Source: Noviherbaspirillum cavernae (lineage in GTDB: Bacteria > Pseudomonadota > Gammaproteobacteria > Burkholderiales > Burkholderiaceae_D). Taken from it: DNA of 64,000 nucleotides. The position numbers and the translations under genes are program-made. The stretch lies in contig NZ_QYUN01000003.1 in assembly GCF_003590875.1 (NCBI RefSeq), forward strand, positions 62,001-126,000. Reading direction: 5' to 3'. Position 1 is the first letter of the stretch. Each line of letters opens with the position of its first letter. Under the pieces are notes generated by a model. The model saw nothing but the letters and a program-made list of their open reading frames with translations, ran no database searches and was not told the origin of the DNA. This document shows, in pieces, positions 46,926 through 64,000 of this stretch.

Positions 46926-47528
46926 TCAAAACCGGCATTTCTCCAGATCGGACGCCGTGTCGATGTCGCGAAGGATGCCGGGGTCGCTTACGGGAACCTC
47001 GTGCACAGGATGGGTTTGCATCAGTCGGCGTGCCCCGATGTCGCCGCGCAGCTGCAACAGCTCGTCGAGGTGCCTGCGGCTGAATGCAACGGGATTGCCG
47101 CGCATCCCCTGATGGACCGGCACTGCGATATCCGCGCCTTGCGCGAGCGCGGCGGCAAGCTGTCGGATCGTGTCGGGCGAGACGAAGGGCATGTCGCCAA
47201 GGGCAATGATCCAGCCCGGCGCATCGTGGGCGAGGCGCAATGCATGTACCAGCGACGCGGCCATGCCGGTATCGGCGGCGGCGCACTTGGTCACCGCGCA
47301 GCCCTGCGCGGAAAGGTGGGCGGAGAGGACGGGTGAATCGGCGGGCACCACGGCAAGCAGGGAGTCAGTTGCGGCTTGCAGATGGCGTGCGGCAGCGGCC
47401 ACGATGGTGGTGCCGTCCGGGAGAGTCTGCAGCAGCTTGTTCTGTCTGCCTTCCGGATCGAAGCGCCATCCCCGTCCTGCGGCGAGCAGGATGCCGGCGT
47501 AGCGGGGTTTTGCTTCGGCGCAGGTCAT
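46926..47528 (-). CDS. mocA: Molybdenum cofactor nucleotidyltransferase (MocA-like)
   Basis: The 200-residue protein has the GT-A nucleotidyltransferase opening LLAAGRGWRFDPEGRQNKLL, followed by WIIALGDMPFVSPDTIRQLA (metal-binding Asp) and GMRGNPVAFSRRHLDELL. MocA transfers CMP from CTP to molybdopterin to form the MCD cofactor of the xanthine-oxidase-type enzymes. It starts 26 bases after the xdhC stop in the same direction. This fits maturation of the nicotinate-dehydrogenase-like enzyme at the right edge of the window. Confidence 0.85.
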   Translation of the reverse strand: MTCAEAKPRYAGILLAAGRGWRFDPEGRQNKLLQTLPDGTTIVAAAARHLQAATDSLLAVVPADSPVLSAHLSAQGCAVTKCAAADTGMAASLVHALRLAHDAPGWIIALGDMPFVSPDTIRQLAAALAQGADIAVPVHQGMRGNPVAFSRRHLDELLQLRGDIGARRLMQTHPVHEVPVSDPGILRDIDTASDLEKCRF

Positions 47529-47553
47529 CGAGGATGTGTGCCCGATCAGTCGC

Positions 47554-48567
47554 TCAGCCGAACCTGCAGCCTGATGACGCTGTTGTCACCGCTGCATGTT
47601 CGCGCATGGCATGCGTCTGCAGGACCGGCACGCCGTTCCGCATCGCCGTCATTTCCGCCAGTATTGCAATCGCGATTTCCGGCGGCGTGCGCGCGCCGAG
47701 ATGCATGCCGACCGGGCCGTGCAGCCGGGCGATTTCGGCAGTGCTGATGTCGAACAGCGCGAGCCGCTGGCGACGCTTGTCGTTGTTCGCGCGCGAACCG
47801 ATCGCGCCGACGTAGAACGCGGGCGATTTCAATGCTTCCAGCAAGGCCATGTCATCGAGTTTGGGATCGTGCGTCAGTGCCAGCACGGCGCAGTGCGAGT
47901 CGAGCTGCAGGCGCAGGATCAGGTCGTCGGGCATTTCGGTCGACAGCTGCACGCCGTCGATATCCCATTCGGCGAGATATTCCTCACGCGGGTCGCAGAC
48001 GATGATCTCGTAGTCGAGCATCTTCGCCAAGGCGGCGACGTAGCGCGACAGTTGTGCCGCACCGATGATCACCAGCCGGTAGCGCGGGCCGTGCACCGTA
48101 ATCAGCCGCGCGTCGTCGAAGGCGAGTGCGGCGGCATGAGCGCCGGGCGCGAGCGTGACCGCGCCCGATGCAAGATCGAGCTCCCTGGTCACGAGCCGCT
48201 GCTGCTGCACGGCATCGAGCAGCGGAGCCAGCTGCGACTGTGCAGAAACGCACTCAAGGACGATTTGCAGCGTTCCGCCGCACGGCAGGCCGAAGCGATG
48301 CGCTTCGTCGGCCGACACACCGTAAGTCAGGATGCGCGGACTGCGATCGCGGTATTCGCCCGCCCGGATTTTCCGGATCAGATCGTCTTCGATGCAACCG
48401 CCGGAGACGGATCCCTTGACGTGCCCGTCTTCGCGAATGACCATCATCGAGCCGACCGGACGCGGTGCCGAACCCCAGGTTCGCACCACCGTCGCCAGCA
48501 GCGTACGGGCGCCGCTATCGGACCATTTCAAGGCAGTCTTCAAAACCTCGAGATCGATGCTGTCCAT
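47554..48567 (-). CDS. xdhC: XdhC-family molybdoenzyme maturation factor
   Basis: The protein has 337 residues. The N-terminal XdhC_CoxI domain contains ATVVRTWGSAPRPVGSMMVI and GSVSGGCIEDDLIRKI, and the C-terminal Rossmann domain has RLVIIGAAQLSRYVAALAKM, LTHDPKLDDMALLEALKSPA and GAIGSRANNDKRRQRL. XdhC binds the molybdopterin cofactor, guides its sulfuration and delivers it to xanthine-dehydrogenase-type apoproteins. The mocA-xdhC pair sits in the same gene block as the NicAB-like enzyme, so they probably serve it. Confidence 0.88.
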   Translation of the reverse strand: MDSIDLEVLKTALKWSDSGARTLLATVVRTWGSAPRPVGSMMVIREDGHVKGSVSGGCIEDDLIRKIRAGEYRDRSPRILTYGVSADEAHRFGLPCGGTLQIVLECVSAQSQLAPLLDAVQQQRLVTRELDLASGAVTLAPGAHAAALAFDDARLITVHGPRYRLVIIGAAQLSRYVAALAKMLDYEIIVCDPREEYLAEWDIDGVQLSTEMPDDLILRLQLDSHCAVLALTHDPKLDDMALLEALKSPAFYVGAIGSRANNDKRRQRLALFDISTAEIARLHGPVGMHLGARTPPEIAIAILAEMTAMRNGVPVLQTHAMREHAAVTTASSGCRFG

Positions 48568-48700: not shown

Positions 48701-49891
48701 TCAGTGGACGACGACCGGTATCTCGGTGGCTGGCGGTGTATTGCGGCTGCGGCCGCAGCGCACGATGCCGTCGATCATCACCATGCCGACGCCGGGGATG
48801 TCGCCGAGCTGCACGCTGTCGAGAAGATTGCGTCCGGCGGAATGTTGCGCCTTGTCCATGAACACAAAATCCGCCGCGCGGCCGACCTCGATCAGTCCGC
48901 GGTTGAGATTGCGGATGCGCGCCGTGTTCCCCGTTGCGAAGCAGAACACCAGTTCCGCTGGAATCCGTCCGAGGCTCGACAGCAGGGCGACCATGCGCAG
49001 CATCCCGAGCGGCTGGACGCCCGAGCCGGCAGGGCCGTCCGTTCCGAGGATCACGCGATGCGGGCACTTGAGCTGGATGGCGGCTTGTGCGGCCGCAATG
49101 GCGACGCGTTCATTGCCGTTGTGGACGATCTCGATGGCACGGCTCGATTTTTCGCACAGCTCGCAGACATGGGCTTCGGGCAGCGACGTGTGGCCGCCGT
49201 TGATGTGGCCGATGACGTCGGCGTCGGCTTCGAGCACCACGTCCTTGTCGATCAGTCCGGAACCGGGAATGGAAGGACCGCCGGTGTGGATGGTGCTCTG
49301 GATGCCGTACTTGCGCGCCCATGCCACCATCTTCTGTGCCTCTTCGCCTGCCTTCACCGAGCCGAGGCCGACTTCGCCAAGCAGTGTGACGCCGGCTTCC
49401 GCGAGATCCTTGAAGTCTTCCTCGGTCATGCCTTTCTCGATGACGGGCGCGCCGGCGATCACCTTGACCCCGCCGGGGCGGAAATTGTCGAAGGCGCGCT
49501 GCGCGGTGATGGCAAGCGCCTTCAGGCCGACGATATCCTTGGGGCGGCCCGGCAGGTGCACTTCGCCGGCGGAAATCATGGTGGTCACGCCGCCGTGCAT
49601 GGTGGAATCGATCCAGCCGAGCTGGTTTTGACGGGGAGTCCAGTCGCCGAACACCGGATGCACATGGCTGTCGATCAGGCCCGGCGCCACGCAGGTTTGA
49701 CGCGCATCGATGACCGTGTCCGCCTGCGCCGTATCGCAATCCGACTCTGCGCCCACCGCGGTGATCACGCCGTCATGAATGACGATGGTATCGGCCTGGA
49801 GAATCGGCTGGTCGATGTCGCCCGAGAGGAGAAGACCGATGTTCTTGATGACGACTTTCCCGGATTTCGATGTGGTGCCTGCGTCTGCCAT
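48701..49891 (-). CDS. Amidohydrolase, enamidase-like
   Basis: The protein has 396 residues of the metal-dependent amidohydrolase superfamily. Metal ligands are seen in LIDSHVHPVFG (HxH), a later Lys/Glu region (VIAGAPVIEKGMTEEDF), the histidines in STIHTGGPS and GHINGGHTSL, and the Asp in ILGTDGPAGSGV. The overall wording is close to enamidase of the Eubacterium barkeri nicotinate pathway, which opens the ring of 6-oxo-1,4,5,6-tetrahydronicotinate. The neighbour coding a 6-hydroxynicotinate-reductase-like protein strengthens the guess. Start at 49891 is preceded by GGGGACAACTC. Confidence 0.78.
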   Translation of the reverse strand: MADAGTTSKSGKVVIKNIGLLLSGDIDQPILQADTIVIHDGVITAVGAESDCDTAQADTVIDARQTCVAPGLIDSHVHPVFGDWTPRQNQLGWIDSTMHGGVTTMISAGEVHLPGRPKDIVGLKALAITAQRAFDNFRPGGVKVIAGAPVIEKGMTEEDFKDLAEAGVTLLGEVGLGSVKAGEEAQKMVAWARKYGIQSTIHTGGPSIPGSGLIDKDVVLEADADVIGHINGGHTSLPEAHVCELCEKSSRAIEIVHNGNERVAIAAAQAAIQLKCPHRVILGTDGPAGSGVQPLGMLRMVALLSSLGRIPAELVFCFATGNTARIRNLNRGLIEVGRAADFVFMDKAQHSAGRNLLDSVQLGDIPGVGMVMIDGIVRCGRSRNTPPATEIPVVVH

Positions 49892-50013: not shown

Positions 50014-50754
50014 TCAGGTCACCTTTCGCCTGCCGGCCTTCGGCTTGTCTGGCGGTTTCGTATTCTGTTTCGTACTCTCCGTCATCGATACCTGCCGTAT
50101 CACCGCCGATGTAATGAATCCTTCCCAATGCGCCAGCGCGTCCGGTGCTCCCAGGTCTTCGCCCAGAAAGGCCGACAGCGTAAAGCGGTTGGATGTATAG
50201 AAATAGGCCAGCGCCGCGCTCATCAGGTAGATGTCGCGTGCCCGGACGTCAGGCCGGAAAACGCCCATCTCGGCGCCTCTCGCCAGCACGCGCCCCATCA
50301 GCGAGATCGCCGGCGAGGAATACTCGCGCGCGCGCAGAGACTTGGAAATGTGCTTGCCCCGATGCAGGTTTTCGCTGTTGAGCAGCGTGATGAACTCGGG
50401 GTTCTGCTGGTAGTAGTCCCACATGAACCGCACCAGCGTCTTCAGATCCTCGACCGGATCATCCATGTTCAGGATGACCTTCGACTCTGCGTCGTTGAAG
50501 CGCCGGTAGGTATCCTCGATGACGGCAATGAACAACTCTTCCTTGTTGCCGAAGTAGTAATAGATCATGCGGTCGTGCGACTTGGCGGCTTTGGAGATCT
50601 GTTCGATGCGGCCGCCGGCGAAACCGTGCTTTGCAAACACCTTCGTCGCCGCGCGCAGGATGTTTTCCTGCGTCGTTTGCGCGGCCAGCTCGCGCACGCG
50701 TGGCCGCCTTGCCGCTGTATTGGCAGTGGTGCGTCGTGGGGAAGTTGTCGCCAT
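50014..50754 (-). CDS. TetR-family transcriptional regulator
   Basis: The protein has 246 residues. A basic N-terminal arm (MATTSPRRTTANTAARRPRV) is followed by the HTH (ATKVFAKHGFAGGRIEQISK, SHDRMIYYYFGNKEELFIAV), and the helical ligand-binding part is TetR_C-like (FMWDYYQQNPEFITLLNSEN). The C-terminal tail is unusually Lys/Pro-rich. It lies between the amidohydrolase and the ferredoxin reductase on the same strand. The likely operators are the tandem palindromes at 52047-52087. Confidence 0.87.
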   Translation of the reverse strand: MATTSPRRTTANTAARRPRVRELAAQTTQENILRAATKVFAKHGFAGGRIEQISKAAKSHDRMIYYYFGNKEELFIAVIEDTYRRFNDAESKVILNMDDPVEDLKTLVRFMWDYYQQNPEFITLLNSENLHRGKHISKSLRAREYSSPAISLMGRVLARGAEMGVFRPDVRARDIYLMSAALAYFYTSNRFTLSAFLGEDLGAPDALAHWEGFITSAVIRQVSMTESTKQNTKPPDKPKAGRRKVT

Positions 50755-50819
50755 GTTCAGGCCGTTATTGAAAAGTTATCCAAAGCCATCAAGCCGCAGA
50801 GCACATGGCGGAGCGGATG

Positions 50820-51593
50820 CTATTGCTCTGCAAACGCGCGTTCGATGACGAAATCGCCTGGTGTCGACGTATTCCCTTCCTTGAAGCCGTCTTCCTCAAG
50901 CATCTTCTTCAGGTCGCGCAGCATGCCGGGGCTGCCGCAGATCATGATCCGGTCTGCTTTGGGGTCGAGCGGGGGGAGGCCGAGATCGGAGAAGATTTTG
51001 CCGCTGGTGATCAGGTCGGTCACGCGGCCCATGTTCTTGTACTGCTCGCGGGTGACGGTGGGGTAGTAGCGCAGCTTGCTGGTCACCATGTCGCCGAGGA
51101 ATTCGTGGTTCGGCAGGTGTTCCACCAGCAGATCATGATATGCAAGTTCGTCAACCTGGCGCACGCCATGAACGAGGACGATCTGGTCGAATTTTTCGTA
51201 GGTCTCGGGATCGCGGATGATGCTCATGAACGGCGCGAGTCCGGTGCCCGTGGATAGCAGATACAAATGCTTTCCTGGCAACAGATAGTCGGTGACGAGC
51301 GTGCCGGTGGGCTTGCGGCCGACAATGATCGTGTCGCCGACCTGGATGTTCTGCAGTCTGGAAGTCAGCGGGCCGTCGGGCACCTTGATGCTCAGGAACT
51401 CGAGGTGATCCTCGTAGTTGGCGCTGACGATGCTGTATGCCCTCAACAGGGGCTTGTTCTCCACCCGCAAGCCGATCATGGTGAAATGACCATTGCTGAA
51501 GCGTAGCGCGGGATCGCGGGTAGTCGTGAAGGTAAACAGGCGGTCGGTCCAGTGGTGGACGCTCAGTACTCGTTCTTCGTGCAGGTTGCTCAT
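50820..51593 (-). CDS. fpr: Ferredoxin-NADP+ reductase
   Basis: The 257-residue protein resembles the bacterial Fpr (subclass A) type. It has RAYSIVSANYEDHLEFLSIK (FAD), the NADP-binding LLSTGTGLAPFMSIIRDPET, LVHGVRQVDELAYHD and the C-terminal GSPGMLRDLKKMLEEDGFKE. It transfers electrons between NADPH and ferredoxin. It lies 40 bases downstream of the ferredoxin gene fdxA in the same direction, so the two are co-transcribed, and they probably supply electrons to the reductase encoded across the divergent promoter. Confidence 0.9.
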   Translation of the reverse strand: MSNLHEERVLSVHHWTDRLFTFTTTRDPALRFSNGHFTMIGLRVENKPLLRAYSIVSANYEDHLEFLSIKVPDGPLTSRLQNIQVGDTIIVGRKPTGTLVTDYLLPGKHLYLLSTGTGLAPFMSIIRDPETYEKFDQIVLVHGVRQVDELAYHDLLVEHLPNHEFLGDMVTSKLRYYPTVTREQYKNMGRVTDLITSGKIFSDLGLPPLDPKADRIMICGSPGMLRDLKKMLEEDGFKEGNTSTPGDFVIERAFAEQ

Positions 51594-51632: not shown

Positions 51633-51956
51633 TCAACGCTCCAGATATGTAATTTTATCCGTTCTCTCTCTCCAGATTTCCGCATCGGGCAGCGGGCCCT
51701 TGCGTTTCGAGATGGTCGGCCAGCTTCTGGCCAGGTCGGCATTGAGGTCGGCGAATGAATGCATCGCTGCCGGCAGGTCGTCTTCCGCGCAGATTGCCTG
51801 CACCGGACACTCCGCTATGCACACCGCGCAATCGATGCATTCCTCGGGATCGATCACCAGAAAATTCGGCCCTTCCTTGAAGCAGTCGACCGGGCATACG
51901 TCAACGCAGTCGGTGTATTTGCAGCGGATACAGGATTCAGTCACCACATGTGTCAT
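51633..51956 (-). CDS. fdxA: 7Fe ferredoxin (3Fe-4S/4Fe-4S), FdxA type
   Basis: The product has 107 residues from an ATG behind GGGAGACTGC. The N-terminal half has [17 protein letters not shown] and the second motif is [13 protein letters not shown], the arrangement of FdxA ferredoxins with one 3Fe-4S and one 4Fe-4S cluster. The following Ala/Trp/Ile-rich tail (about 45 residues) matches the Azotobacter-type ferredoxin. It is divergent from the 6-hydroxynicotinate-reductase-like gene, with two palindromes in between, and co-directional with fpr. Confidence 0.93.
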
Positions 51957-52046
51957 TGCAGTCTCCCGGCATGCGAGGCGCTGCGGCATTGCCGGCATGC
52001 GGCAGGTGCGTCGCCCTTCGCTCAATTTTGCGCTTGCAGCATCAAT

Positions 52047-52087
52047 ATGTAGCATATACTAAACGAAAATGTAGTGTACACTACATT
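52047..52087. promoter_or_regulatory. Tandem palindromic operators in the fdxA/reductase divergent promoter
   Basis: AATGTAGTGTACACTACATT (52068-52087) is a perfect 20-bp palindrome. A degenerate copy, ATGTAGCATATACTAAAC (52047-52064), matches its inner 18 bases at 13 positions. The corresponding bases of the two copies are 22 bp apart, two helical turns. Probable binding sites of the TetR regulator encoded at 50014-50754. Confidence 0.7.
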
Positions 52088-52134: not shown

Positions 52135-53757
52135 ATGACCGAGCACACGAAGACCGACGGCTTGCCAGGAATCGAGCCGCAAATACTTGAGCGAGCCAAG
52201 CCGCGCAGCGAGCGCATGGCAAGCGACAAGATCGAATGCAATGCCTGTCCCGTGCTGTGCCAGATCACTGCCGGCAGATCGGGCGCGTGCGACCGCTACG
52301 CCAATGTGGATGGAACGCTTGTGCGCGTGGATCCGGTCATTCTCCTGAAAAAGGTTCTTGGTTCCTCGGATGGCGCGGTCGTGCCTTTTACAGGACGTCC
52401 GGGCATGGAGGAAGACGACACGCAAGGGAAGTCCGGCGAAAGTCCCGTTGCGGAATCCGAGTGGAACGGCGACCTGCTGCACGCCGGCGAGGTGTTCGTC
52501 ACCGGCGTCGGTTCATCGACCACCTATCCCGACTACAAACCCGCGCCCTTCATCGTGTCGTCCAGGGCCGAGGGCGTCGACATGGTGACCGTCGTCACTG
52601 AAGGAATCTTCAGCTACTGCAGCTTCAAGGTGAAGATCGACACCGACAGATATCTCGGCCCGGAGCAGGCCAATGTCCGTTACAAGGGCGAAGTCGTTGG
52701 ACACGTGACGACCGCCGAGTACGGCTCCCAAATGCTCTCGCTCGGTGGTGTGCATCACCTCACCGGAGGAAGCAAGAAGGAAGGGCGCCTCACGGCCGAG
52801 ATGATGCAGGTAATCGGCAACAAGCAGGCGGCGGAACTGACCATCGATGGCGGCTCCCAGGTCATGATCCATGCTGGTCGCGCGCCTATCGTCAACGGCA
52901 TCGAAGAACAGCGCATGCGGGTCGGCTGCGGGTCGGCTACGATCGGCATCTTTGCCAAGCAGTTGTACGGCAAGGTGGATGAGGTGATCGTGGTGGACGA
53001 CCACATCACCGGCGTGCTGACCGAGCATCAGGCCGGGCGCTGTCTCGACATTCCGCCGTCCGGCGTGAAAATCCGCGGACGCAAGTCGACGCCGGGCCGT
53101 TACTTCCAGGTCGCCAACCCAGGCATCGGGTGGGGCGGCACCGACATCTCCGATCCGATCAGCATCATCGAAGGATGGGATCCTGACGTGGCATGGCCGG
53201 GACTGCGTCTGCTGATGACCTCCACCACGGGCGAGCATTCTGCCTGGTTCGTGCTGGACGACAGCCTGTGCCCCATCGAGCAGGACATGCCGGCCGAGGT
53301 CGAAAAGGTCGTGCAGCGGATCGGCGAAAACTGCGAACCGTCATTGACGACCGTCCTGTTCCTCGGCGGCGCGGGTGGCAGCCTGCGCGCAGGCGTCACC
53401 GAGAACCCGGTCCTGTTGACCCGATCCATCAAGCAGGCATTGGTCAATGTGACATGTGGTGGAGCGCCCGCATATGTCTGGCCCGGCGGCGGCATTACCG
53501 TCATGACCGATGTGATGCGCATGCCTGACAACAGCTTCGGCACCGTGCCGACGCCGGCAATCGTCGCGCCGATAGAATTCACCATGAAGCTGGCCGACTA
53601 TCAGGCGCTTGGCGGTCATATGGATTACGTGCGCTCGCTGTCGTCGGTGCTCGGCACGGGCGCATGGCACAACGAGGGCGCACCGACACGCAGAAGATGG
53701 CTGCAGCAGCCTTCAATCAATGCGTGGCCGGCCGATGTCGGCCCGATGCTCGGTTGA
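52135..53757 (+). CDS. 6-hydroxynicotinate reductase-like Fe-S protein
   Basis: From the ATG behind ACGGAGACGCAGG the protein has 540 residues. Near the N-terminus IECNACPVLCQITAG plus the Cys in SGACDRY give a CxxCx3Cx9C cluster-ligand pattern. Several flavin- or substrate-like glycine-rich segments follow (FVTGVGSSTTYPDY, AGRCLDIPPSGVKIRG, LFLGGAGGSLRAGVTENP). This length and wording fit the family annotated as 6-hydroxynicotinate reductase, which in Eubacterium barkeri reduces 6-hydroxynicotinate to 6-oxo-1,4,5,6-tetrahydronicotinate with reduced ferredoxin. The divergent fdxA-fpr pair would supply electrons. Confidence 0.75.
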   Translation: MTEHTKTDGLPGIEPQILERAKPRSERMASDKIECNACPVLCQITAGRSGACDRYANVDGTLVRVDPVILLKKVLGSSDGAVVPFTGRPGMEEDDTQGKSGESPVAESEWNGDLLHAGEVFVTGVGSSTTYPDYKPAPFIVSSRAEGVDMVTVVTEGIFSYCSFKVKIDTDRYLGPEQANVRYKGEVVGHVTTAEYGSQMLSLGGVHHLTGGSKKEGRLTAEMMQVIGNKQAAELTIDGGSQVMIHAGRAPIVNGIEEQRMRVGCGSATIGIFAKQLYGKVDEVIVVDDHITGVLTEHQAGRCLDIPPSGVKIRGRKSTPGRYFQVANPGIGWGGTDISDPISIIEGWDPDVAWPGLRLLMTSTTGEHSAWFVLDDSLCPIEQDMPAEVEKVVQRIGENCEPSLTTVLFLGGAGGSLRAGVTENPVLLTRSIKQALVNVTCGGAPAYVWPGGGITVMTDVMRMPDNSFGTVPTPAIVAPIEFTMKLADYQALGGHMDYVRSLSSVLGTGAWHNEGAPTRRRWLQQPSINAWPADVGPMLG

Positions 53758-54705: not shown

Positions 54706-54770
54706 AATATTTCGGATAAGCTTGCGCTCATGCCGAACAGCATCGAATCGAAAATCAGAGGGACATGCTT

Positions 54771-55412
54771 ATGATCGAGATCCGCCGTGTCTTCAGTCAT
54801 GTCGAAGACATTTTTCACGAATTCGGCCCGGTGCCTGCGGTACCGCTCCGGCGCGGCTATATTGCCGGCATCCTCACCAATCCCTATGCGGGACGCCATG
54901 AACCCGACATCCTTCCCATGATGGAGCGACTCAACGACGTGGGTATCAGCCTGGCGCGCCATCTGCTTGACGATCTTGATGTTCCTGTCGAAAGAATCGA
55001 AGGCTACGGCAAGGGTGCGCTGATCGGTGCACACGGCGAGCTGGAGCATGGTGCGCTCTGGCATGTGCCGGGCGGTTATGCGATGCGGGAGCTGCTGGGC
55101 TGGAAAGGCGATCCGGCCGCTTATGCGGCGGGCCAGGGCAGCGGAGTGAAGGGGCAGCCAGGCAACGCGCTGGCCATCGTGCCATCCACGAAGAAGGTGG
55201 CTGGTCCGGGCGCGACCCTCGATGTTCCCTTGACGCACATTAACGCGGCCTATGTGCGCAGCCATTTCGATGCGATCGAAGTGCGGGTTCCCGGTGCGCC
55301 GCGTCCCGATGAACTGGTTGTCATTCTCGCGATGAGCACCGGAGCGCGTGTTCACGCGCGCGTCGGTGGTCTGAAGGCGGCCGACATCGCAAAATGGGAT
55401 GGCCTGCGCTGA
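54771..55412 (+). CDS. DUF1185 (amino acid synthesis family) protein, copy 1
   Basis: From the ATG after GAGGGAC the product has 213 residues; an ATG at 54765 is also possible. It opens MIEIRRVFSHVEDIFHEFG and has GILTNPYAGRHEPDIL, YGKGALIGAHGELEHGALWH, VPSTKKVAGPGATLDVPL and VRSHFDAIEVRVPGAPRPDE, all matching the DUF1185/AA_synth family. Its biochemical function is not established; the name amino acid synthesis is historical. It is followed by a second, shorter member of the same family. Confidence 0.78.
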   Translation: MIEIRRVFSHVEDIFHEFGPVPAVPLRRGYIAGILTNPYAGRHEPDILPMMERLNDVGISLARHLLDDLDVPVERIEGYGKGALIGAHGELEHGALWHVPGGYAMRELLGWKGDPAAYAAGQGSGVKGQPGNALAIVPSTKKVAGPGATLDVPLTHINAAYVRSHFDAIEVRVPGAPRPDELVVILAMSTGARVHARVGGLKAADIAKWDGLR

Positions 55413-56044: not shown

Positions 56045-56103
56045 AGAGTGAGCTGCATTGCGCACGAACGCTGTATTGATTGATCCACTACAAGGAGAGG
56101 TAC

Positions 56104-57309
56104 ATGAAGAAGACAAGCAGTTGGCTCGCAACAGTTGCTGTTCTCTGGGCCGCCGCCAATGCACTCACGGCACATGCGCAAGGAGTGATCAAGATCGGGG
56201 AAGTCAACAGTTACAAGGCGCAACCAGCCTTCCTTGAGCCGTACCGCAAGGGCCTCGAACTGGCCGTGGATCAGGTCAATGCAAGCGGCGGCGTCAACGG
56301 CAAGAAGCTGGAACTGGTGATTCGCGACGACAACGGCAATCCGGGCGATGCGGTGCGCGCGGCGGAGGAGCTGATTTCGCGCGAGAAGGTGGATGTGCTG
56401 ACCGGGACTTTCCTGTCGCACGTCGGCCTGGCGCTGACGGATTTCGCCAAGCAGCGCAAATTCTTCTTCCTGGCTGCGGAGCCGCTCACCGACAAGATCG
56501 TCTGGCAGAACGGCAACAAGTACACCTACCGTTTGCGCCCGTCGACCTATATGCAGGTCGCCATGCTGGTGCCGGAAGCCGCTGCGCTGAAGAAGAAACG
56601 CTGGGCGCTTGTGTACCCCAACTATGAGTACGGCCAATCCGCCGTGGCGACATTCAAGGAATTGCTGAAGGCCGCGCAGCCCGATGTGGAATTTGTGACC
56701 GAACAGGCTTCACCGTTGGGCAAGGTCGATTCCGGCAGCGTCGTCCAGGCGCTTGCCGATGCCAAACCCGATGCGATCTTCAACGTGCTCTTTGGACCTG
56801 ACCTCTCGAAATTCGTCCGTGAGGGCAATACGCGCGGCCTGTTCCAGGGGCGCGAGGTGGTCAGCTTGCTGACTGGCGAGCCGGAATACCTGGACCCGCT
56901 CAAGGATGAAACGCCAAACGGCTGGATCGTCACCGGTTATCCGTGGTACAGCATCCAGACGCCGGAACATAAAGCGTTCCGCAGTGCATATGAAGCAAAG
57001 TTCAAGGACTATCCGCGCCTTGGTTCCGTCGTCGGCTATAGCGCAATCATGTCGCTCGCAGAGGGCATGAAAAAAGCAAAATCGACCGAGACTGAAAAGC
57101 TGGTCGCAGCGTTCAAGGGGCTGCAACTCATGACGCCGTTCGGGCAGATCACGTACCGCCCCGAGGACAATCAATCGACGATGGGTGGCTACGTGGGACG
57201 CACCAAGAACGAGGGCGGCAAGGGCGTGATGGTCAACTATCACTACCTCGACGGCGCAAAGTACCAGCCTTCCGCCGCTGAGGTGGCGAAGCGCCGAGCG
57301 GTTGATTAA
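56104..57309 (+). CDS. ABC transporter periplasmic binding protein (Liv-type), catabolic cluster
   Basis: The protein has 401 residues from an ATG behind AAGGAGAGGTAC. A signal peptide is seen (MKKTSSWLATVAVLWAAANA, cleavage near AHAQGV), and the mature Peripla_BP_6 fold has VIKIGEVNSYKAQPAFLEPY, ELVIRDDNGNPGDAVRAAEE and LVYPNYEYGQSAVATFKELL. It is the first gene of the second Liv system and lies next to the DUF1185 pair. Ligand probably the N-heterocyclic substrate of the neighbouring enzymes, by context only. Confidence 0.87.
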   Translation: MKKTSSWLATVAVLWAAANALTAHAQGVIKIGEVNSYKAQPAFLEPYRKGLELAVDQVNASGGVNGKKLELVIRDDNGNPGDAVRAAEELISREKVDVLTGTFLSHVGLALTDFAKQRKFFFLAAEPLTDKIVWQNGNKYTYRLRPSTYMQVAMLVPEAAALKKKRWALVYPNYEYGQSAVATFKELLKAAQPDVEFVTEQASPLGKVDSGSVVQALADAKPDAIFNVLFGPDLSKFVREGNTRGLFQGREVVSLLTGEPEYLDPLKDETPNGWIVTGYPWYSIQTPEHKAFRSAYEAKFKDYPRLGSVVGYSAIMSLAEGMKKAKSTETEKLVAAFKGLQLMTPFGQITYRPEDNQSTMGGYVGRTKNEGGKGVMVNYHYLDGAKYQPSAAEVAKRRAVD

Positions 57310-57556: not shown

Positions 57557-59479
57557 ATGAACTTTTCCAGTTTCGCGGTTCAGTTACTCAATGGTCTGGC
57601 GGGCGCCTCGTCGCTCTTCCTGGTGGCAGCCGGACTGTCGTTGATTTTTGGCGTGACGCGCATTGTCAATTTCGCGCATGGCTCGTTTTACATGGTCGGT
57701 ATTTATGTCGCCTATACGCTGGTCGAGCGACTGGGCGGCGGCATGAGTTTCTGGCTGGCGTTGGTGCTGGCCGCGCTGGTGGTCGGTGTACTCGGCGCAG
57801 TGGTGGAGATCGTGCTGTTGCGCCGCATTTATCGCGCGCCCGAATTGTTCCAGTTGCTGGCGACCTTTGCCCTGGTGCTGGTCATCAAGGATGCCGCGTT
57901 GTGGTTGTGGGGGCCGGATGAATTGCTCGGGCCGCGTGCGCCGGGATTGTCCGGCTCGGTCACCATACTCGGGCGTCAGTTTCCTCAATATGACTTGTTC
58001 CTGATCGTTATCGGGCCTGTCGTACTCGGCTTGCTCTGGTTGCTGCTGACGCGCACGCGCTGGGGCACATTGGTTCGTGCCGCCACACAGGATCGCGAGA
58101 TGGTGAGCGCGCTGGGCGTGAATCAGGCTTGGCTGTTCACCAGCGTTTTCGCATTGGGTGCCGTGCTTGCAGGATTGGGGGGCGCGTTGCAGCTTCCGCG
58201 CGAACCGGCGAATCTGGAAATGGACCTCATCACGATCGGCGCCGCATTTGTCGTGGTCGTGGTGGGCGGCATGGGGTCGATTCCCGGTGCGTATATCGCC
58301 GCCTTGCTGATCGCAGAGGTCAAGGCGATCTGCATCTGGCTGGGACTTGTCGATGTATTCGGCGTCAGCGTGTCGTTCTCCAAATTGACGCTGGTCGTGG
58401 AGTTCCTTGTGATGGCCGCGGTGCTCGTGGTTCGTCCTTGCGGACTGCTGGGGAGGCCGCAGGCGCCGAGTCGCAGTTACGGCGCGGCGGAAGAACCGTT
58501 GCGCCCCGCGCACAAGCTGTACAAGCTGGCAGGAGTGGTGCTCGTCGTGGCGCTGGTTGTCTTGCCGCTGTTGATGAAAGATTCGCCATACATGACCGTG
58601 CTGGCGATCGATCTGATGGTGGCGGCATTGTTCGCGGCCAGTCTGCACTTCATCATGGGACCGGCCGGGATGCATTCGTTCGGGCACGCCGCGTATTTCG
58701 GACTGGGCGCATATGGCGCAGCGATGCTGGTGCGCAGCTTCGGCTTGCCGATGGAAGCATCGCTGGTGGTTGCGCCATTGTTGGCGGCTGGTGGGGCGCT
58801 GCTGTTCGGCTGGTTCTGCGTGCGTCTGTCGGGGATTTATCTCGCGATGCTGACCCTGGCTTTTGCGCAGATTACTTGGGCGATCTGTTACCAATGGGAT
58901 GCCGTTACCGGCGGCAGCAACGGTTTGACCGGCGTGTGGCCGGCACCGTGGTTGGCCGACAAGACTGCGTACTACTATCTCACTCTTGCGGTTGCGCTTG
59001 CCGGTATCCTGCTATTGCGCCGCATGCTGTTTTCACCCTTCGGCTACGCCATGCGCGCCAGCCGCGACTCCTTCCTGCGGGCCGATGCCATCGGGATCGA
59101 CGTGAAGCGGATGCAATGGGTCGCATTCACTGTCGCCGGCTTGTTCGCGGGTATCGCGGGCGCGCTGTTCGCATTTTCCAAGGGCAGCATTTCGCCGGAA
59201 ACGCTCCACGTCAGCAAATCGGTGGATGGCATCGTGATGGTCATGCTGGGCGGCATCCAGACCCTGATCGGCCCCATCGTCGGCGCGGTCACCTTCAACT
59301 GGCTGCACGACACGATTGCGCGCAGCACCGATTACTGGCGCGCGACGCTGGGTGCGATCATCCTGCTGCTGGTATTGCTCTTTCCCCAGGGGATTGCCGG
59401 TTTCGTGCGGCAATTGTTTGAACGCATCGGGCGCAACAGTAGCAATGACGGCAAGACCGAAACGAAGGAGGCACACTGA
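57557..59479 (+). CDS. ABC transporter permease, LivH-LivM fusion
   Basis: The 640-residue protein joins two permeases. Residues 1-295 are LivH-like (LNGLAGASSLFLVAAGLSLI, RIVNFAHGSFYMVGIYVAYT, TQDREMVSALGVNQAWLFTS) and residues 330-630 are LivM-like (GPAGMHSFGHAAYFGLGAYG, LSGIYLAMLTLAFAQITWAI, RASRDSFLRADAIGIDVKRM). A cytoplasmic linker with GRPQAPSRSYGAAEEPLRPA joins them. No frameshift or stop separates the halves, so it is a natural fusion. Its stop overlaps the next start (TGATG). Confidence 0.88.
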   Translation: MNFSSFAVQLLNGLAGASSLFLVAAGLSLIFGVTRIVNFAHGSFYMVGIYVAYTLVERLGGGMSFWLALVLAALVVGVLGAVVEIVLLRRIYRAPELFQLLATFALVLVIKDAALWLWGPDELLGPRAPGLSGSVTILGRQFPQYDLFLIVIGPVVLGLLWLLLTRTRWGTLVRAATQDREMVSALGVNQAWLFTSVFALGAVLAGLGGALQLPREPANLEMDLITIGAAFVVVVVGGMGSIPGAYIAALLIAEVKAICIWLGLVDVFGVSVSFSKLTLVVEFLVMAAVLVVRPCGLLGRPQAPSRSYGAAEEPLRPAHKLYKLAGVVLVVALVVLPLLMKDSPYMTVLAIDLMVAALFAASLHFIMGPAGMHSFGHAAYFGLGAYGAAMLVRSFGLPMEASLVVAPLLAAGGALLFGWFCVRLSGIYLAMLTLAFAQITWAICYQWDAVTGGSNGLTGVWPAPWLADKTAYYYLTLAVALAGILLLRRMLFSPFGYAMRASRDSFLRADAIGIDVKRMQWVAFTVAGLFAGIAGALFAFSKGSISPETLHVSKSVDGIVMVMLGGIQTLIGPIVGAVTFNWLHDTIARSTDYWRATLGAIILLLVLLFPQGIAGFVRQLFERIGRNSSNDGKTETKEAH

Positions 59480-60258
59480 TGAGCCTGTTGACAGTGACCA
59501 ACCTCGGAAAGTCGTTCGGCGGCGTCAAGGCAGTCGACGGCATCAGCTTCGATCTCCACGCGGGCGAATTGCTGGCATTGATCGGCCCGAACGGCGCAGG
59601 CAAGTCCACCACCTTCAACATGGTGAACGGCCAGCTCACAGCCGACGTGGGATCGATCAAGTTCGATGGCAAAGAGCTGGTGGGACTCAAGCCTCGCGAA
59701 ATCTGGCGACTGGGCGTCGGCCGCACTTTCCAGATTGCCGAAACGTTCTCTTCGCTGACCGTGGTCGAGAACGTGCAGATGGCGCTGCTGTCCGCTGACA
59801 GAAAATTATTTTCGATGTGGCGTCCCGCTTCTGCGCACAAGCGCGAAGAGGCATTGGCCTTGCTGGATCAGGTCGGCATGGCGGCGCAGGCGGACCGCCC
59901 ATGCAGCGTGCTTGCCTATGGCGACGTCAAGCGCGTCGAACTCGCCATCGCGATGGCGAACAAGCCCAAGCTCTTGCTGATGGACGAACCGACTGCCGGC
60001 ATGGCACCCAAGGAACGCAACGAGCTGATGGCATTGACCAAGAAACTGGTGACCGAACGCAACATGGCGGTGCTGTTCACCGAGCACAGCATGGATGTCG
60101 TCTTTGCCTACGCCGACCGCATGATCGTGCTGGCGCGTGGTCGCCTGATCGCAGGCGGCGCGCCGAAAGATATCCGCGATCATCCGAAAGTGCAGGAAGT
60201 CTATTTCGGCACCGGCAAGACGTTTGAAAAAGAAAAAACATCCAGGGAGATCGCGTGA
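59479..60258 (+). CDS. ABC transporter ATP-binding protein (LivG-like)
   Basis: The protein has 259 residues. Walker A is GPNGAGKSTTFN, the Q-loop is RTFQIAETFSSLT, and the signature segment reads SVLAYGDVKRVELAIAMAN, followed by Walker B LLLMDEPTAGMAPKE and FTEHSMDVVF. AYGDVKR replaces the usual LSYGQQR, as in other LivG copies. Start and stop overlap the neighbouring genes (ATG with TGA on both sides), so translation is coupled. Confidence 0.92.
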   Translation: MSLLTVTNLGKSFGGVKAVDGISFDLHAGELLALIGPNGAGKSTTFNMVNGQLTADVGSIKFDGKELVGLKPREIWRLGVGRTFQIAETFSSLTVVENVQMALLSADRKLFSMWRPASAHKREEALALLDQVGMAAQADRPCSVLAYGDVKRVELAIAMANKPKLLLMDEPTAGMAPKERNELMALTKKLVTERNMAVLFTEHSMDVVFAYADRMIVLARGRLIAGGAPKDIRDHPKVQEVYFGTGKTFEKEKTSREIA

Positions 60259-61034
60259 TGCGCGTCACGGCAGACAATGCAACGCAGGGAGGGGCAGCCG
60301 GCCCCGTCAAGGAAACACTGCTGGACGTCAAGGCGCTCAGTGCATGGTATGGCGCGGCGCAAATCCTGTTCAACGTCGATCTCGATGTCCGTCGCGGCGA
60401 AGTCGTTGCCCTGATGGGACGCAACGGCGCGGGAAAATCGACGACGCTCAAGGCCATCATGGGCCTGGTGCCGAAACGGCGCGGGGCATTGTCCTTCATG
60501 GGACACGATGTCTCGACCTCGCAGCCGCATGAAACGGCAGCGCGCGGGCTGGGCTTCGTGCCGGAGGATCGCCGCATCTTCACCGATCTGAGCGTGATGG
60601 AAAACCTCGATGTCGGACGTCAGAAAAAACGTCATTGGCCCGATGGTTCGCTGGCTCCGGTGTGGACGCCGGAGCGCCTGTTCAAACTGTTCCCTAACCT
60701 GGGAGAAATGCCGAATCGCCCCGGCGGCCGCATGAGCGGCGGCGAACAACAGATGCTCACGGTGGCACGCACGCTGATGGGAAACCCGTATCTGGTCTTG
60801 CTGGATGAACCATCGGAAGGGGTAGCGCCGGTGATCGTCGAGCAGATGGCACAGATGATTCTGGAGTTGAAGGCGGAGGGCGTGAGCATTCTTCTGTCGG
60901 AACAGAACATGCATTTCGCCGAGCTGGTTTCCGACCGGACCTACGTGCTGGAAAAAGGCCAGATCCGCTTCGAGGGATCGATGGAAGAACTTGCCGCCAA
61001 CGAAGCCGTCAGGCAAGCCTATCTCAGCGTATGA
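60258..61034 (+). CDS. ABC transporter ATP-binding protein (LivF-like)
   Basis: The ATG overlapping the livG-like stop gives 258 residues. There is an 18-residue N-terminal extension before the normal start (ETLLDVKALSAWYGAAQILF). Walker A is MGRNGAGKSTTLKA, the signature is RMSGGEQQMLTVARTLMG, Walker B is LVLLDEPSEGVAPVI and the H-loop is LLSEQNMHFAELV. It completes the second Liv system. The next gene, for the 2Fe-2S subunit, starts 13 bases later, so uptake and oxidation appear to be co-transcribed. Confidence 0.92.
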   Translation: MRVTADNATQGGAAGPVKETLLDVKALSAWYGAAQILFNVDLDVRRGEVVALMGRNGAGKSTTLKAIMGLVPKRRGALSFMGHDVSTSQPHETAARGLGFVPEDRRIFTDLSVMENLDVGRQKKRHWPDGSLAPVWTPERLFKLFPNLGEMPNRPGGRMSGGEQQMLTVARTLMGNPYLVLLDEPSEGVAPVIVEQMAQMILELKAEGVSILLSEQNMHFAELVSDRTYVLEKGQIRFEGSMEELAANEAVRQAYLSV

Positions 61035-61047
61035 GCCTGCACGCGGA

Positions 61048-61536
61048 ATGAACACATCGCCTTTGCGGGTGACGGTGAACGGACAGCAGTGTTGCCTCGA
61101 TGTGCCGGGCGACGCGCCGCTGCTGTTCGTGCTGCGCAACGATCTCGGACTCAACGGGCCGAAGTATGGCTGCGGCCTCGGGCAGTGCGGTGCCTGCACG
61201 GTTCTGATTGATGGCAAGAGTGCGCGTTCCTGCGTGATTCCGACAAGCGGTGCCGCCGGTAGGCATGTGACGACGCTGGAGGGACTGGGTAGCAAGACAG
61301 CGCTGCATTATGTGCAGCAAGCATTCATCGAGGAACAGGCCGCGCAATGCGGTTATTGCCTCAACGGCATGATCATGTCGACCGTTGCGCTGTTGCAAAA
61401 AAATCCCTGTCCGACCGACGAGCAGATCAGGAATGCGCTTGCACATAACCTGTGCCGTTGCGGCACGCATGTCGAAATACTGAAGGCGGTCCGGCGTGCC
61501 ATGCAACTCGCCGCCGCGGAGAAGGAGCCGAAATGA
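61048..61536 (+). CDS. 2Fe-2S subunit of a nicotinate-dehydrogenase-like molybdoenzyme (NicA-like)
   Basis: The product has 162 residues, the usual size of the small subunit. The plant-type cluster is KYGCGLGQCGACTVLIDGK, and the second cluster is in AAQCGYCLNGMIM and LCRCGTHVEILKAVRRAM. Such subunits pass electrons from the molybdenum centre to the next carrier. The stop overlaps the ATG of the molybdopterin subunit in ATGA. The pair resembles Pseudomonas putida NicAB (nicotinate to 6-hydroxynicotinate) but also isoquinoline 1-oxidoreductases; the adjacent 6-hydroxynicotinate-reductase-like gene favours the former. Confidence 0.87.
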   Translation: MNTSPLRVTVNGQQCCLDVPGDAPLLFVLRNDLGLNGPKYGCGLGQCGACTVLIDGKSARSCVIPTSGAAGRHVTTLEGLGSKTALHYVQQAFIEEQAAQCGYCLNGMIMSTVALLQKNPCPTDEQIRNALAHNLCRCGTHVEILKAVRRAMQLAAAEKEPK

Positions 61537-64000
61537 CCCGTCGCGCCGACACGCCGTACAGCCGGCGTGATTTTCATGAAGCGCAGGGCGTGCTGCTGAT
61601 CACGCGCGAGCCGCCGCCTGCGCCACCGCCGGTGAAAGGTCAGCCAGCCGCAGTGCCGGGAAATCCCGCTGAAGGTGTCGAGATTCTGATTGCGGTCTGG
61701 GACGACGGCAGCGTCACCGCATTGAGCGGGCATGTCGATCTCGGAACCGGCATTCGCACCGCACTCGCGCAGATCGCGGCGGAAGAACTCGACGTCCGCA
61801 TGGACCAGATCAACATGGTCCTTGGCGATACCACACGCGCGCCGAACCAGGGTGCCACTATTGCCAGCGCATCGATCCAGATTCATGCCAATCCCTTGCG
61901 TGCGGCCGCGGCGCAGGCGCGCGCATGGCTGCTATCTCAGGCAGCGGCGCATCTTGATGCCGCAATCGACGAACTGGAAGTCAACGGTGGAATCGTGTCG
62001 GTGCGCGGAAATTCGGAGCACGCGATCAGTTACGCCGATCTTGTTCGGGGACGCCACACCGCCTTGCTGCTCGACTTGAATACGGCGGTGAAGCGGCCCG
62101 AGGATTATCGTCTGGTCGGACAGAGCACGCCGCGCGTCGATATTCCGTCCAAGGCCGTGGGCGAGCTGACTTTCGTGCATGATGTGCGCGTGCCGGGGAT
62201 GCTGCACGGTCGCGTGATCCGGCCGCCATACGCCGGTGCCGACCATGGCGACTTCATCGGTAATACGCTGGAGTCGGTCGATGAAAGTTCGATCGCACAT
62301 ATTCCGGGTATCGTCACGACGGTCGTGATCGGCGACTTCGTCGGCGTTGTCGCGCTGCGCGAGGAACATGCGGAGCAGGCGATGCGGGAGTTGGCCGTGA
62401 AGTGGAAGGAATGGCCCGCCTTGCCCGACCTCGCCAATCTCGAAGTGGCGCTGCGCGACAACCCTTCCACGCGCAGGGTGGTCGCCAATCAGGGCGACGT
62501 CGATGCTGCACTCGCCAATGCCGCGGTGCGCATGGACAGGACGTATGTCTGGCCTTACCAGCTGCATGCATCCATCGGGCCTTCCTGTGCGGTGGCCGAT
62601 TGGCATGCCGAACGAATGACGGTATGGGCGGGAACGCAAAACCCGCACGTCCTGCGCGCGGATCTCGCCAAGCTCATGGACCTGCCCGATGTCGCCATCG
62701 ACGTCATCCGCATGGAAGCGGCCGGATGCTATGGACGCAACTGTGCCGACGATGTTGCGGCGGACGCCGCGTTGCTATCGCGCGCGGTCGGCAGCCCGGT
62801 GCGCGTGCAACTGACCAGAGAGCAAGAGCACCAATGGGAGCCGAAGGGCGCGGCGCAATTGATGGAAATCCACGGCGGCTTGAATGCCGACGGCAGCGTT
62901 GCCGGCTACGATTTCCAGACTTCCTATCCGTCGAACGGTGCCGTCACGCTGGCGCTGCTGCTGACCGGAAAAGTCAGTCCGCAGCCGATTGCCTACGAAA
63001 TGGGCGACCGCACTTCGGTGCCGCCCTACGATTACCAGAACCTCCGTGTGACGATCAACGACATGGCGCCGATCCTGCGCGCGTCGTGGCTGCGCGGCGT
63101 ATCCGCATTGCCCAATTCGTTCGCGCACGAGTGTTACATCGACGAGCTGGCCGCCGAGGCGGGTGTCGATCCGGTCGAATATCGTTTGCGCTACCTGAAG
63201 GACGACAGGGCCGCCGAACTGCTGCGTGCCACGACCGAGCGCGCCGGCTGGATGCCGCATGTGAAGCCGCAGCAACAGGAAGCCGACGGTGATTTTCTCA
63301 AGGGGCAGGGTGTCGCCTATGCTCGCTATGTCCATAGCCGCTTTCCCGGCTTCGGCGCAGCCTGGGCAGCGTGGGTCGCGGATGTGGAAGTCAATCGCAA
63401 CACCGGCGAGGTCCACGTGCGGCGCGTCGTGGTCGGTCACGATGCCGGTCTGATGATCAATCCGGATGGCGTGAAACACCAGATTCACGGCAATGTGGTG
63501 CAGACAACCAGCCGCGCGCTCAAGGAAGAGGTCAAGGTCGATGCGCGAACCAACACAGTCATCAGCAAGGAGTGGGGAAGTTATCCGATCCTGAATTTCC
63601 GCGAAGTGCCCGTCATCGACGTGATGATGATGCCGCGCAACGATCAGCCGCCGCAGGGGGCGGGCGAATCCTCATCGGTGCCGGGGACCGCCGCCATTGC
63701 CAATGCCATTTTCGATGCGACCGGTATCCGTTTCCGGCAGCCGCCCTTTACTGCCGAGCTGGTCAAGGCGGCCTTGAGTCCGCCGCCGGCCGAGCCCGCA
63801 AACCCGCCACGCACGCGCCGGCCATGGTGGGCGGTTCCGGGCGCCTTGCTGGCGGGAGCGATGGGAATCGGCGCGGCCATGCTGGGATGGAAGTCCGCCA
63901 TTCCCGAGGTGACGCGCATCGATCCGTCGATCTACTCGGCGGAGGTCATCGAACGCGGTCGCCGTCTGGCCGCCGCAGGCGACTGCTCGGTGTGCCATAC
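61533..64000 (+). CDS. Molybdopterin-binding subunit of nicotinate-dehydrogenase-like enzyme, cytochrome c-tailed (NicB-like), partial
   Basis: The frame runs from the overlapping ATG to the window end (822 codons, incomplete). It has Ald_Xan_dh_C2-type segments: VDLGTGIRTALAQIAAEELD (metal-binding), GELTFVHDVRVPGMLHGRVI, QLHASIGPSCAVADWHAERM, AAGCYGRNCADDVAADAALL and GAGESSSVPGTAAIANAIFD (catalytic-glutamate region). Around residue 765 there is a Pro-rich linker and one hydrophobic segment (WWAVPGALLAGAMGIGAAML). The last visible bases encode CSVCH, the first haem site of a cytochrome c domain. As in P. putida NicB, electrons would go to the respiratory chain, not to NAD. The C-terminus lies outside the window. 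Confidence 0.85.
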   Translation, partial: MTRRADTPYSRRDFHEAQGVLLITREPPPAPPPVKGQPAAVPGNPAEGVEILIAVWDDGSVTALSGHVDLGTGIRTALAQIAAEELDVRMDQINMVLGDTTRAPNQGATIASASIQIHANPLRAAAAQARAWLLSQAAAHLDAAIDELEVNGGIVSVRGNSEHAISYADLVRGRHTALLLDLNTAVKRPEDYRLVGQSTPRVDIPSKAVGELTFVHDVRVPGMLHGRVIRPPYAGADHGDFIGNTLESVDESSIAHIPGIVTTVVIGDFVGVVALREEHAEQAMRELAVKWKEWPALPDLANLEVALRDNPSTRRVVANQGDVDAALANAAVRMDRTYVWPYQLHASIGPSCAVADWHAERMTVWAGTQNPHVLRADLAKLMDLPDVAIDVIRMEAAGCYGRNCADDVAADAALLSRAVGSPVRVQLTREQEHQWEPKGAAQLMEIHGGLNADGSVAGYDFQTSYPSNGAVTLALLLTGKVSPQPIAYEMGDRTSVPPYDYQNLRVTINDMAPILRASWLRGVSALPNSFAHECYIDELAAEAGVDPVEYRLRYLKDDRAAELLRATTERAGWMPHVKPQQQEADGDFLKGQGVAYARYVHSRFPGFGAAWAAWVADVEVNRNTGEVHVRRVVVGHDAGLMINPDGVKHQIHGNVVQTTSRALKEEVKVDARTNTVISKEWGSYPILNFREVPVIDVMMMPRNDQPPQGAGESSSVPGTAAIANAIFDATGIRFRQPPFTAELVKAALSPPPAEPANPPRTRRPWWAVPGALLAGAMGIGAAMLGWKSAIPEVTRIDPSIYSAEVIERGRRLAAAGDCSVCH

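Follow-up and report, generated by a model that had tools for sequence, protein, structure and literature searches.

A probable nicotinate-utilisation gene cluster of the Azorhizobium/SG-6C type in Noviherbaspirillum cavernae

Introduction

The gene cluster described here occupies positions 46926 to 64000 of a stretch of 64,000 nucleotides (referred to as the window) from contig NZ_QYUN01000003.1 of Noviherbaspirillum cavernae, whose genome comprises 4.66 Mb on four contigs. Its closest described counterparts are the nicotinate-degrading systems of Azorhizobium, for which the order of the reactions has reportedly been established, and of strain SG-6C. According to PMC3511419, the complete breakdown of nicotinate in Azorhizobium runs via glutarate, and A. 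caulinodans ORS571, Bradyrhizobium japonicum USDA110, Rhodopseudomonas palustris HaA2 and SG-6C share the same route via 1,4,5,6-tetrahydro-6-oxonicotinate and glutarate. The paper also describes clusters of this type from Bradyrhizobiaceae, and one, encoding an ATP-binding cassette (ABC) transporter together with two functionally uncharacterised proteins, that is kept in A. caulinodans and other proteobacteria. SG-6C, which carries this cluster type, degrades nicotinate and 6-hydroxynicotinate, and its 6-hydroxynicotinate reductase (Hnr) is 42% identical to that of Eubacterium barkeri (PMC3511419). Since the pathway of Azorhizobium and the cluster type are published, the combination of an aerobic entry with a reductive ring opening is already known and not new.

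The cluster of N. cavernae is very probably a nicotinate-utilisation gene group of this type, encoding most of the route. As in the published type, hnr lies beside genes for a hydroxylase, an enamidase and an ABC importer. Differences from the Azorhizobium/SG-6C type are a TetR regulator with a palindromic site, two DUF1185 genes, and genes of a glutaryl-coenzyme A (CoA) type directly after nicB. The fermentation of E. barkeri resembles the present system in its enamidase (47% identity here) and in Hnr. Its entry enzyme, in contrast, is a selenium-containing enzyme of four subunits, whereas a cytochrome-c-linked NicAB is found here, and its downstream part, which runs through methyleneglutarate and dimethylmalate, differs from the glutaryl-CoA to which the genes of N. 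cavernae point. The nic pathway of Pseudomonas putida shares the NicAB-type entry with cytochrome c domains but opens the ring oxidatively, whereas here reduction and hydrolysis would take the place of this step. The absence of NicC from the cluster, remarked on in the first-pass annotation of this DNA, was confirmed insofar as no flavin monooxygenase of the NicC type occurs among the Pfam-scanned frames, the rest of the genome not having been searched.

In the proposed route, nicotinate would be imported by the Liv transporter and hydroxylated by NicAB to 6-hydroxynicotinate, with the electrons passing to cytochrome c. The ferredoxin-NADP reductase Fpr, likely the electron source of Hnr, would together with the ferredoxin FdxA supply the reduction to 1,4,5,6-tetrahydro-6-oxonicotinate, from which the enamidase (Ena) would release 2-formylglutarate and ammonia. 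The decarboxylation of 2-formylglutarate to glutarate semialdehyde would most likely proceed with the help of the DUF1185 proteins. An aldehyde dehydrogenase encoded elsewhere would then yield glutarate, and a CoA-transferase and an acyl-CoA dehydrogenase encoded past the window would form glutaryl-CoA and oxidise it. TetR would act at the palindrome before hnr, and UPF0280 would be a dedicated maturation partner of Hnr.

Results and discussion

Entry and ring-opening enzymes

The product of the enamidase gene (48701-49891, minus strand) matched Ena of E. barkeri (PDB 2vun) with an E value of 1.7e-110 over residues 11-390, while the next solved structure reached only 8.5e-06. In the alignment 179 of 380 residues are identical (47%), including H67, H69, E164, H193, H220 and D276, which presumably form the metal site. 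The amidohydrolase, described as enamidase-like in the first-pass annotation, does group with Ena and keeps these active-site residues, and it is predicted to open the ring of 1,4,5,6-tetrahydro-6-oxonicotinate.

Hnr (540 aa; 52135-53757, plus strand) was recognised by its resemblance to proteins named 6-hydroxynicotinate reductase in several sources, with which it groups; the naming is that of the databases. At an E value of 0.001 Hnr matched none of the Pfam or NCBIfam models, GCV_T_C being found weakly with 0.0025 at best. A further Hnr-like protein of 654 aa (P0122) was considered as a fusion, but as judged by eye it contains an internally repeated Hnr stretch instead. In genome G016 (locus L141) Hnr is present in two overlapping pieces, which reflects either a sequencing error or decay.

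The hydroxylase consists of NicA (61048-61536, plus strand; PF01799 and PF00111; open frame 60991-61536) and NicB (61533-64000, plus strand, continuing to position 5120 of L002, the sequence in which the frame was followed past the window end at 64000). NicA is a separate 2Fe-2S subunit encoded between LivF and NicB, which the first-pass annotation did not list as a gene of its own, and the stop of nicA overlaps the likely start of nicB. The open frame of NicB comprises 1,222 codons and combines the molybdenum domains PF20256 and PF02738 with Cytochrom_C (PF00034) and the cbb3-type domain Cytochrome_CBB3 (PF13442) at its end, in agreement with the cytochrome c tail noted before. The solved structures that matched NicB (8gy3, 3hrd and others) include, for the cytochrome part, the cytochrome c subunit of an aldehyde dehydrogenase complex and, for the molybdenum part, among others, subunits of the nicotinate dehydrogenase of E. 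barkeri. The arrangement that characterises NicAB, a 2Fe-2S subunit and a molybdenum subunit with fused cytochrome c domains, is present.

Based on the identities of Ena, Hnr and NicAB, it is well supported that the route starts with an aerobic, cytochrome-linked step and that the ring is then reduced and hydrolysed, as put forward in the first-pass annotation. The sequence does not reveal which substrates NicAB and the Liv binding protein accept, and SG-6C took 6-chloronicotinate through this route once it was dechlorinated (PMC3511419). The natural substrate could accordingly be a different N-heteroaromatic acid, such as a substituted nicotinate, with unchanged chemistry. This is improbable, since Hnr and Ena closely resemble enzymes that were named for the nicotinate route or structurally solved from it, and the scanned frames showed neither a dehalogenase nor any additional entry enzyme.

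Conservation of the cluster

For the comparison of loci, genome contigs were scanned with an Hnr alignment and the best 80 of at least 591 confirmed relatives were used. Their titles name Burkholderiales or Betaproteobacteria, apart from one given as uncultured bacterium only. Gene presence was scored by tblastn; several contigs end early and most flanks stop near nicB. Besides hnr (80 of 80), homologues were found for UPF0280 (79), DUF1185 clade b (76), DUF1185 clade a (73), livHM (71), tetR (70), ena (68), livG (66), livF (64), nicA (64), livK (63), fpr (60), nicB (57) and fdxA (17), mostly in the same order as in the window. The clustering of these genes is beyond chance.

In a second comparison, an even sample of 398 Pseudomonadota genomes was surveyed, of which 32 carry Hnr. 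An enamidase orthologue (E value below 1e-160) is present in 18 of these; among the other 14, six showed no match and eight only a weak one (E value above 1e-5). Among the 18 enamidase genomes, 14 encode a cytochrome-linked NicAB at the hnr locus, compared to none of the 14 others, a NicB-like match of 47% in G386 not being counted. Of the 18 genomes lacking the cytochrome-linked form, 16 have a molybdenum enzyme of the xanthine dehydrogenase type, and G167 and G386 showed neither within the stretch seen.

UPF0280 as partner of Hnr

The UPF0280 gene follows hnr (53773-54705, plus strand), and its product reached 382.8 bits with the NCBIfam model NF003322 (cut-off 290). Among the 398 genomes this cut-off was exceeded in exactly the 32 that carry Hnr, the only other matches (G293 and G373) being far below it. 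The distance to hnr amounts to 8 to 501 bases in all 32. Moreover, UPF0280 adjoins hnr in 79 of the 80 loci, with the contig of the 80th ending just after hnr, and in 15 of 15 further loci of family f51. UPF0280 is likely a dedicated partner of Hnr, acting in its maturation. As a side observation, the UPF0280 gene of G386 (L145) contains an internal TGA, caused by a sequencing error or by decay.

How UPF0280 would act can be approached from its distant likeness to ApbE (PF02424, E value 1.7e-05, just under the cut-off). A role as flavin transferase is attractive since the Hnr of E. barkeri reportedly carries a covalent flavin. Read by motif, the Ser and the Asp of ApbE seem to be kept as S172 and D198, which are invariant together with G119-G120-D121 in 70 of 70 UPF0280 sequences (the window and 69 of the 79 loci). 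The catalytic Asp-Ser-His of V. cholerae ApbE is formed by residues 285, 241 and 257 (PMC12052999). Two observations weigh against flavin transfer of the orthodox kind: no counterpart of the catalytic His was found in UPF0280 when read by motif, and Hnr does not contain the acceptor motif of ApbE, D-x-x-[ST]-G-A-[ST], in its exact form. At the corresponding place Hnr shows D289-H-I-T-G-[VI]-[LMV] with the [ST] one residue later (13 of 13 and 76 of 76 sequences), and a canonical ApbE acceptor site in Hnr was rejected, the motif being missing from the aligned sequences.

The missing His and motif would suit a different role, in which UPF0280 matures Fe-S or persulfide sites of Hnr and attaches no flavin, as suggested for COG2122 together with DUF39. 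UPF0280 presumably belongs to COG2122. In Desulfovibrio, homocysteine synthesis requires a COG2122 protein with DUF39 and a NIL/ferredoxin protein; a persulfide role is proposed there and the likeness of COG2122 to ApbE is said to stop short of the flavin-binding region (PMC5764234). A relationship of Hnr itself to DUF39 (HcyBio) was rejected, as no such Pfam match was obtained up to an E value of 10 in 13 Hnr sequences; PF01837 was found in none of the 398 genomes. The invariance of S172, D198 and G119-G120-D121 in all 70 sequences argues against the non-flavin role, as does the covalent flavin that E. barkeri Hnr is said to contain, and we give this role slightly less than an even chance.

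HyuA-type proteins in genomes without enamidase

A HyuA-type protein occurs in all 14 Hnr genomes that lack the enamidase, namely the query itself in G139 and proteins of 59 to 67% identity in the other 13. The top NCBIfam model for the G139 protein was the caprolactamase alpha subunit, with 500.7 bits well below the cut-off of 1000. Among the 18 enamidase genomes HyuA was found only in G123 and G194, matches in the others showing at most 50% identity. HyuA and hnr are at most 10 kb apart in 8 of the 14 enamidase-less genomes, and 12 of the 14 have a HyuB-type gene directly beside HyuA, the exceptions being G016 and G139.

As a control, 161 genomes of family f51 were surveyed, the counts of Hnr and HyuA being taken as coming from one and the same draw. 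HyuA (at least 59% identity over its length) was present in 47 of 62 genomes with Hnr compared to 1 of 99 without (G480); a partial match was obtained in G523, also without Hnr. The distance to hnr was at most 10 kb in 24 of the 47. In the fetched regions of the 15 Hnr genomes of this family without HyuA, an enamidase was found in 6 and, by best match, a DUF1185 protein of clade b (see below) in 10. For G465, G508 and G544, neither enamidase nor DUF1185 was found near hnr and no close HyuA in the genome, enamidase not having been searched for in the whole genomes. Their loci (L179, L183 and L186) hold Hnr, UPF0280 and an enzyme of the xanthine dehydrogenase type together.

That enamidase and HyuA are strict alternatives was rejected, because G123 and G194 have both and G465, G508 and G544 have neither near hnr. 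The Hnr tree comprises at least four changes in enamidase presence, from which independent pairs were compared; 2 of 4 pairs differ in HyuA, both in the direction opposite to enamidase. Since HyuA is present in 14 of 14 enamidase-less Hnr genomes and tracks Hnr in family f51, it is likely an alternative ring opener, with exceptions. Among the papers listed, hydantoinase was not mentioned together with 6-hydroxynicotinate.

DUF1185 and the step after ring opening

Two DUF1185 genes follow UPF0280 on the plus strand, one of clade a (54765-55412; PF06684, E value 1e-61) and one of clade b (55460-56044; PF06684, E value 6e-73; PDB 2qtp, E value 9.4e-88), the clades being assigned from trees. The frame of the latter is open from 55394, and the inner ATG at 55460 was taken as the start. 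In 31 of the 32 Hnr genomes a DUF1185 gene adjoins UPF0280 at a distance of 2 to 153 bases. A quick tree of 62 DUF1185 proteins separated clade b (19 sequences, support 98) from clade a (27 sequences, support 99), of which three belong to genomes lacking Hnr. Clade b occurs in 18 of 18 enamidase genomes compared to 1 of 14 others (G386), while 9 of the 18 and 13 of the 14 have clade a at the hnr or ena locus. Of the 4 independent pairs on the Hnr tree, 3 or 4 show clade b changing in the same direction as enamidase and none the opposite (p 0.125 to 0.25); Fisher tests of the co-occurrences take no account of kinship.

Of 12 listed DUF1185 copies lying away from hnr in Hnr genomes, 11 were placed in a second tree, the twelfth being a fragment of 40 residues in G159. 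The pattern of clade b and enamidase remained unchanged, with a support of 77 for clade b. None of the placed copies from enamidase-less genomes belongs to clade b, and one long-branched copy from the enamidase genome G339 does. In G123 and G194 the enamidase gene itself lies away from hnr and adjoins its own pair of clade a and clade b genes. G035, G200, G217, G365 and G384 (L190-L194) each encode an extra DUF1185 protein outside the hnr region; these share 78 to 82% identity with the copy of L135 and form a group of their own near clade a.

DUF1185 is also found in 28 genomes without Hnr. From 19 of these, 20 regions were fetched; no DUF1185 was called in L131, and representatives in L121 and L123 supplied the Pfam names. 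At a distance of up to six genes from DUF1185, 15 of the 20 regions contain a member of the aldehyde dehydrogenase family and 10 a luciferase-like monooxygenase, a context that resembles the trigonelline (tgn) clusters. The remaining contexts vary, as for example in L119 with a gene of the fumarylacetoacetate hydrolase type. The trigonelline route would pass through a 2-formyl diacid, an intermediate that the nicotinate and trigonelline routes would then have in common. The tgn clusters are also similar in their DUF1185-like TgnF and differ in that a luciferase-like oxygenase opens the ring and in that their DUF1185 proteins form a separate clade. According to PMC7913881, TgnF is a homologue of HcdD, a DUF1185 protein, and has a stimulating effect on the semialdehyde dehydrogenase TgnE.

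Since clade b tracks the enamidase and the trigonelline-like contexts offer an analogous formyl diacid, DUF1185 is the best candidate for the so far unassigned step that follows ring opening, the decarboxylation of 2-formylglutarate. K104, E113, E115, H116, R130, E184, R196 and R200 (numbering of the 216-aa protein) are invariant across the four groups of the 62 sequences. The counterparts of E113, H116 and R200 in BB2672 are Glu90, His93 and Arg176, which form a conserved cavity (PMC2954203); structures 3byq and 2qtp were assigned to BB2672 and SPO0826, respectively, by comparing their first residues with the primers given in that paper. Two points speak against this role: DUF1185 was not found beside hnr in G139, G465, G508 and G544, and no stimulating effect was seen for HcdD of a coumarin pathway (PMC7913881), a case that suits a formyl diacid role poorly.

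The crystal structure paper and the Pfam name place DUF1185 in amino acid metabolism, and its presence here could be due merely to the Liv genes, as the argument of 2010 was partly based on neighbouring branched-chain transporter genes (PMC2954203). This appears unlikely, since DUF1185 adjoins hnr without any Liv gene in, for example, the fetched regions of L140, L143, L146 and L155 (weak matches aside), the Hnr-less contexts are rich in aldehyde dehydrogenases and luciferase-like monooxygenases, and clade b follows the enamidase. In addition, the species of SPO0826, Ruegeria (Silicibacter) pomeroyi, has a protein named Hnr, the strain not being given.

In a more serious alternative, DUF1185 would be a hydrolase of the enamine or imine, releasing ammonia in the preceding step, and the decarboxylation would be spontaneous. 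Ring opening by HyuA would yield an enamine that needs deamination, clade a is the sole DUF1185 beside hnr in 12 of the 14 enamidase-less genomes, and beta-formyl acids lose carbon dioxide readily. The enamidase of E. barkeri, however, deaminates unaided (PMC9304392), and yet clade b accompanies the enamidase in 18 of 18 genomes. We regard the hydrolase as possible, at about one chance in three, and retain decarboxylation as the preferred assignment.

TetR and its predicted operator

The tetR gene (50014-50754, minus strand; PF17938 and PF00440) is encoded in the left part of the cluster. Between fdxA and hnr lies a perfect palindrome of 16 bases, TGTAGTGTACACTACA, at 52070, with a weaker copy (12 of 16) at 52048; these two sites, spanning 52048-52085 and given without strand, are the only ones in the window. 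A match to at least 12 of its 16 bases was found in the roughly 300 bases preceding hnr for 71 of the 80 loci, compared to 3 of 1281 random control pieces. The positive loci comprise 64 of the 70 with tetR and 7 whose contig ends before the position of tetR. The other 6 tetR loci score 10 or 11 of 16, while none of the 3 loci with a full flank lacking tetR (L060, L077 and L113) is positive (8 or 9 of 16). The palindrome is likely the operator of TetR. In the 32 Hnr genomes, tetR was found only in the 4 loci of the same gene order, and 27 of the 28 others carry a MarR-like gene.

Genes past the window and the glutaryl-CoA route

The extension past 64000, proposed as a check in the first-pass annotation, revealed two further genes of pathway type after NicB. 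An acyl-CoA dehydrogenase gene starts 28 bases after NicB, followed by a class III CoA-transferase gene, and both fit the formation and oxidation of glutaryl-CoA. In family f51, two of the 15 loci (L174 and L182) hold homologues of both genes near ena and hnr.

Several observations do not favour the complete route. In the flanks seen of the 80 loci, which mostly stop near nicB, the CoA-transferase was found once and the acyl-CoA dehydrogenase not at all. Within the cluster we saw no glutarate semialdehyde dehydrogenase, the search for which did not extend to the rest of the genome, and the aldehyde dehydrogenase further down sits among genes of phosphonate type. Finally, Hnr shows seven Cys invariant across the aligned sequences, which is few for the three Fe-S clusters presumed for E. 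barkeri Hnr.

The genes at L002:7986-17401 encode a class V aminotransferase, an ABC importer with binding protein, a GntR regulator, a phosphodiesterase-type protein, the aldehyde dehydrogenase and an HD protein, and resemble a cluster for the use of 2-aminoethylphosphonate.

Remaining genes of the cluster and its surroundings

All genes named in the first-pass annotation are present as open frames. Next to tetR, on the minus strand as well, lie fpr (50820-51593), whose top match NF008178 reached 159.8 bits at a cut-off of 390, and fdxA (51633-51956; NF045490, 156.1 bits at a cut-off of 135, residues 34-135). The open frame of fdxA covers 51633-52055, and its start was set at residue 34, where the family model begins. 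The importer is encoded on the plus strand by genes for the LivK-like substrate-binding protein (56080-57309; PF13458), the fused permeases LivHM (57557-59479; PF02653 in two stretches) and the ATPases LivG (59479-60258; PF00005 and PF12399) and LivF (60255-61034; PF00005).

At the left end, on the minus strand, lie genes for a MobA/MocA-like nucleoside triphosphate transferase (46926-47528; PF12804, E value 1.6e-35; TIGR03310 under its cut-off) and an XdhC-type maturation factor of molybdenum enzymes (47554-48567; PF13478 and PF02625). Since neither gene had a match in any of the 80 related loci, both fall outside the conserved set, and this pair (46926-48567) may be a local addition to the cluster. 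The MobA-like product perhaps serves the maturation of the molybdenum cofactor for NicAB.

A recent acquisition of the cluster was considered and rejected, because the guanine plus cytosine content of 58 to 64% shows no clear step over 36-64 kb and the repeats listed for 42.0-52.2 kb are short and imperfect. On the minus strand at 44742-46903 lie fragments of a second gene for NAD-glutamate dehydrogenase, comprising ACT domains, the last part of the catalytic domain and the first part of the C-terminal one; the genome also has a full-length copy, around G000:C3:246293-247789.

Conclusions

A joint interpretation of the three families can be offered tentatively, at somewhat below even probability. 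Hnr would be inactive without UPF0280, possibly an unorthodox flavin transferase. DUF1185 proteins, with their invariant Lys, Glu, His and Arg, would be enzymes for 2-formyl (or 2-aminomethylene) diacids common to the nicotinate and trigonelline routes, and an ATP-dependent HyuA, mostly with HyuB, would replace the enamidase in many aerobic nicotinate degraders.

The value of the analysis lies in testable roles for three uncharacterised families within a known, little-studied type of pathway, several genes of which are at present named as unknown or after other functions, as can be seen for DUF1185 with its label of amino acid synthesis. If the co-occurrence holds, UPF0280, DUF1185 and a group of HyuA lactamases would gain roles in the breakdown of vitamin B3, and UPF0280 would tie the nicotinate pathway to the homocysteine synthesis of anaerobes, which needs the same family.

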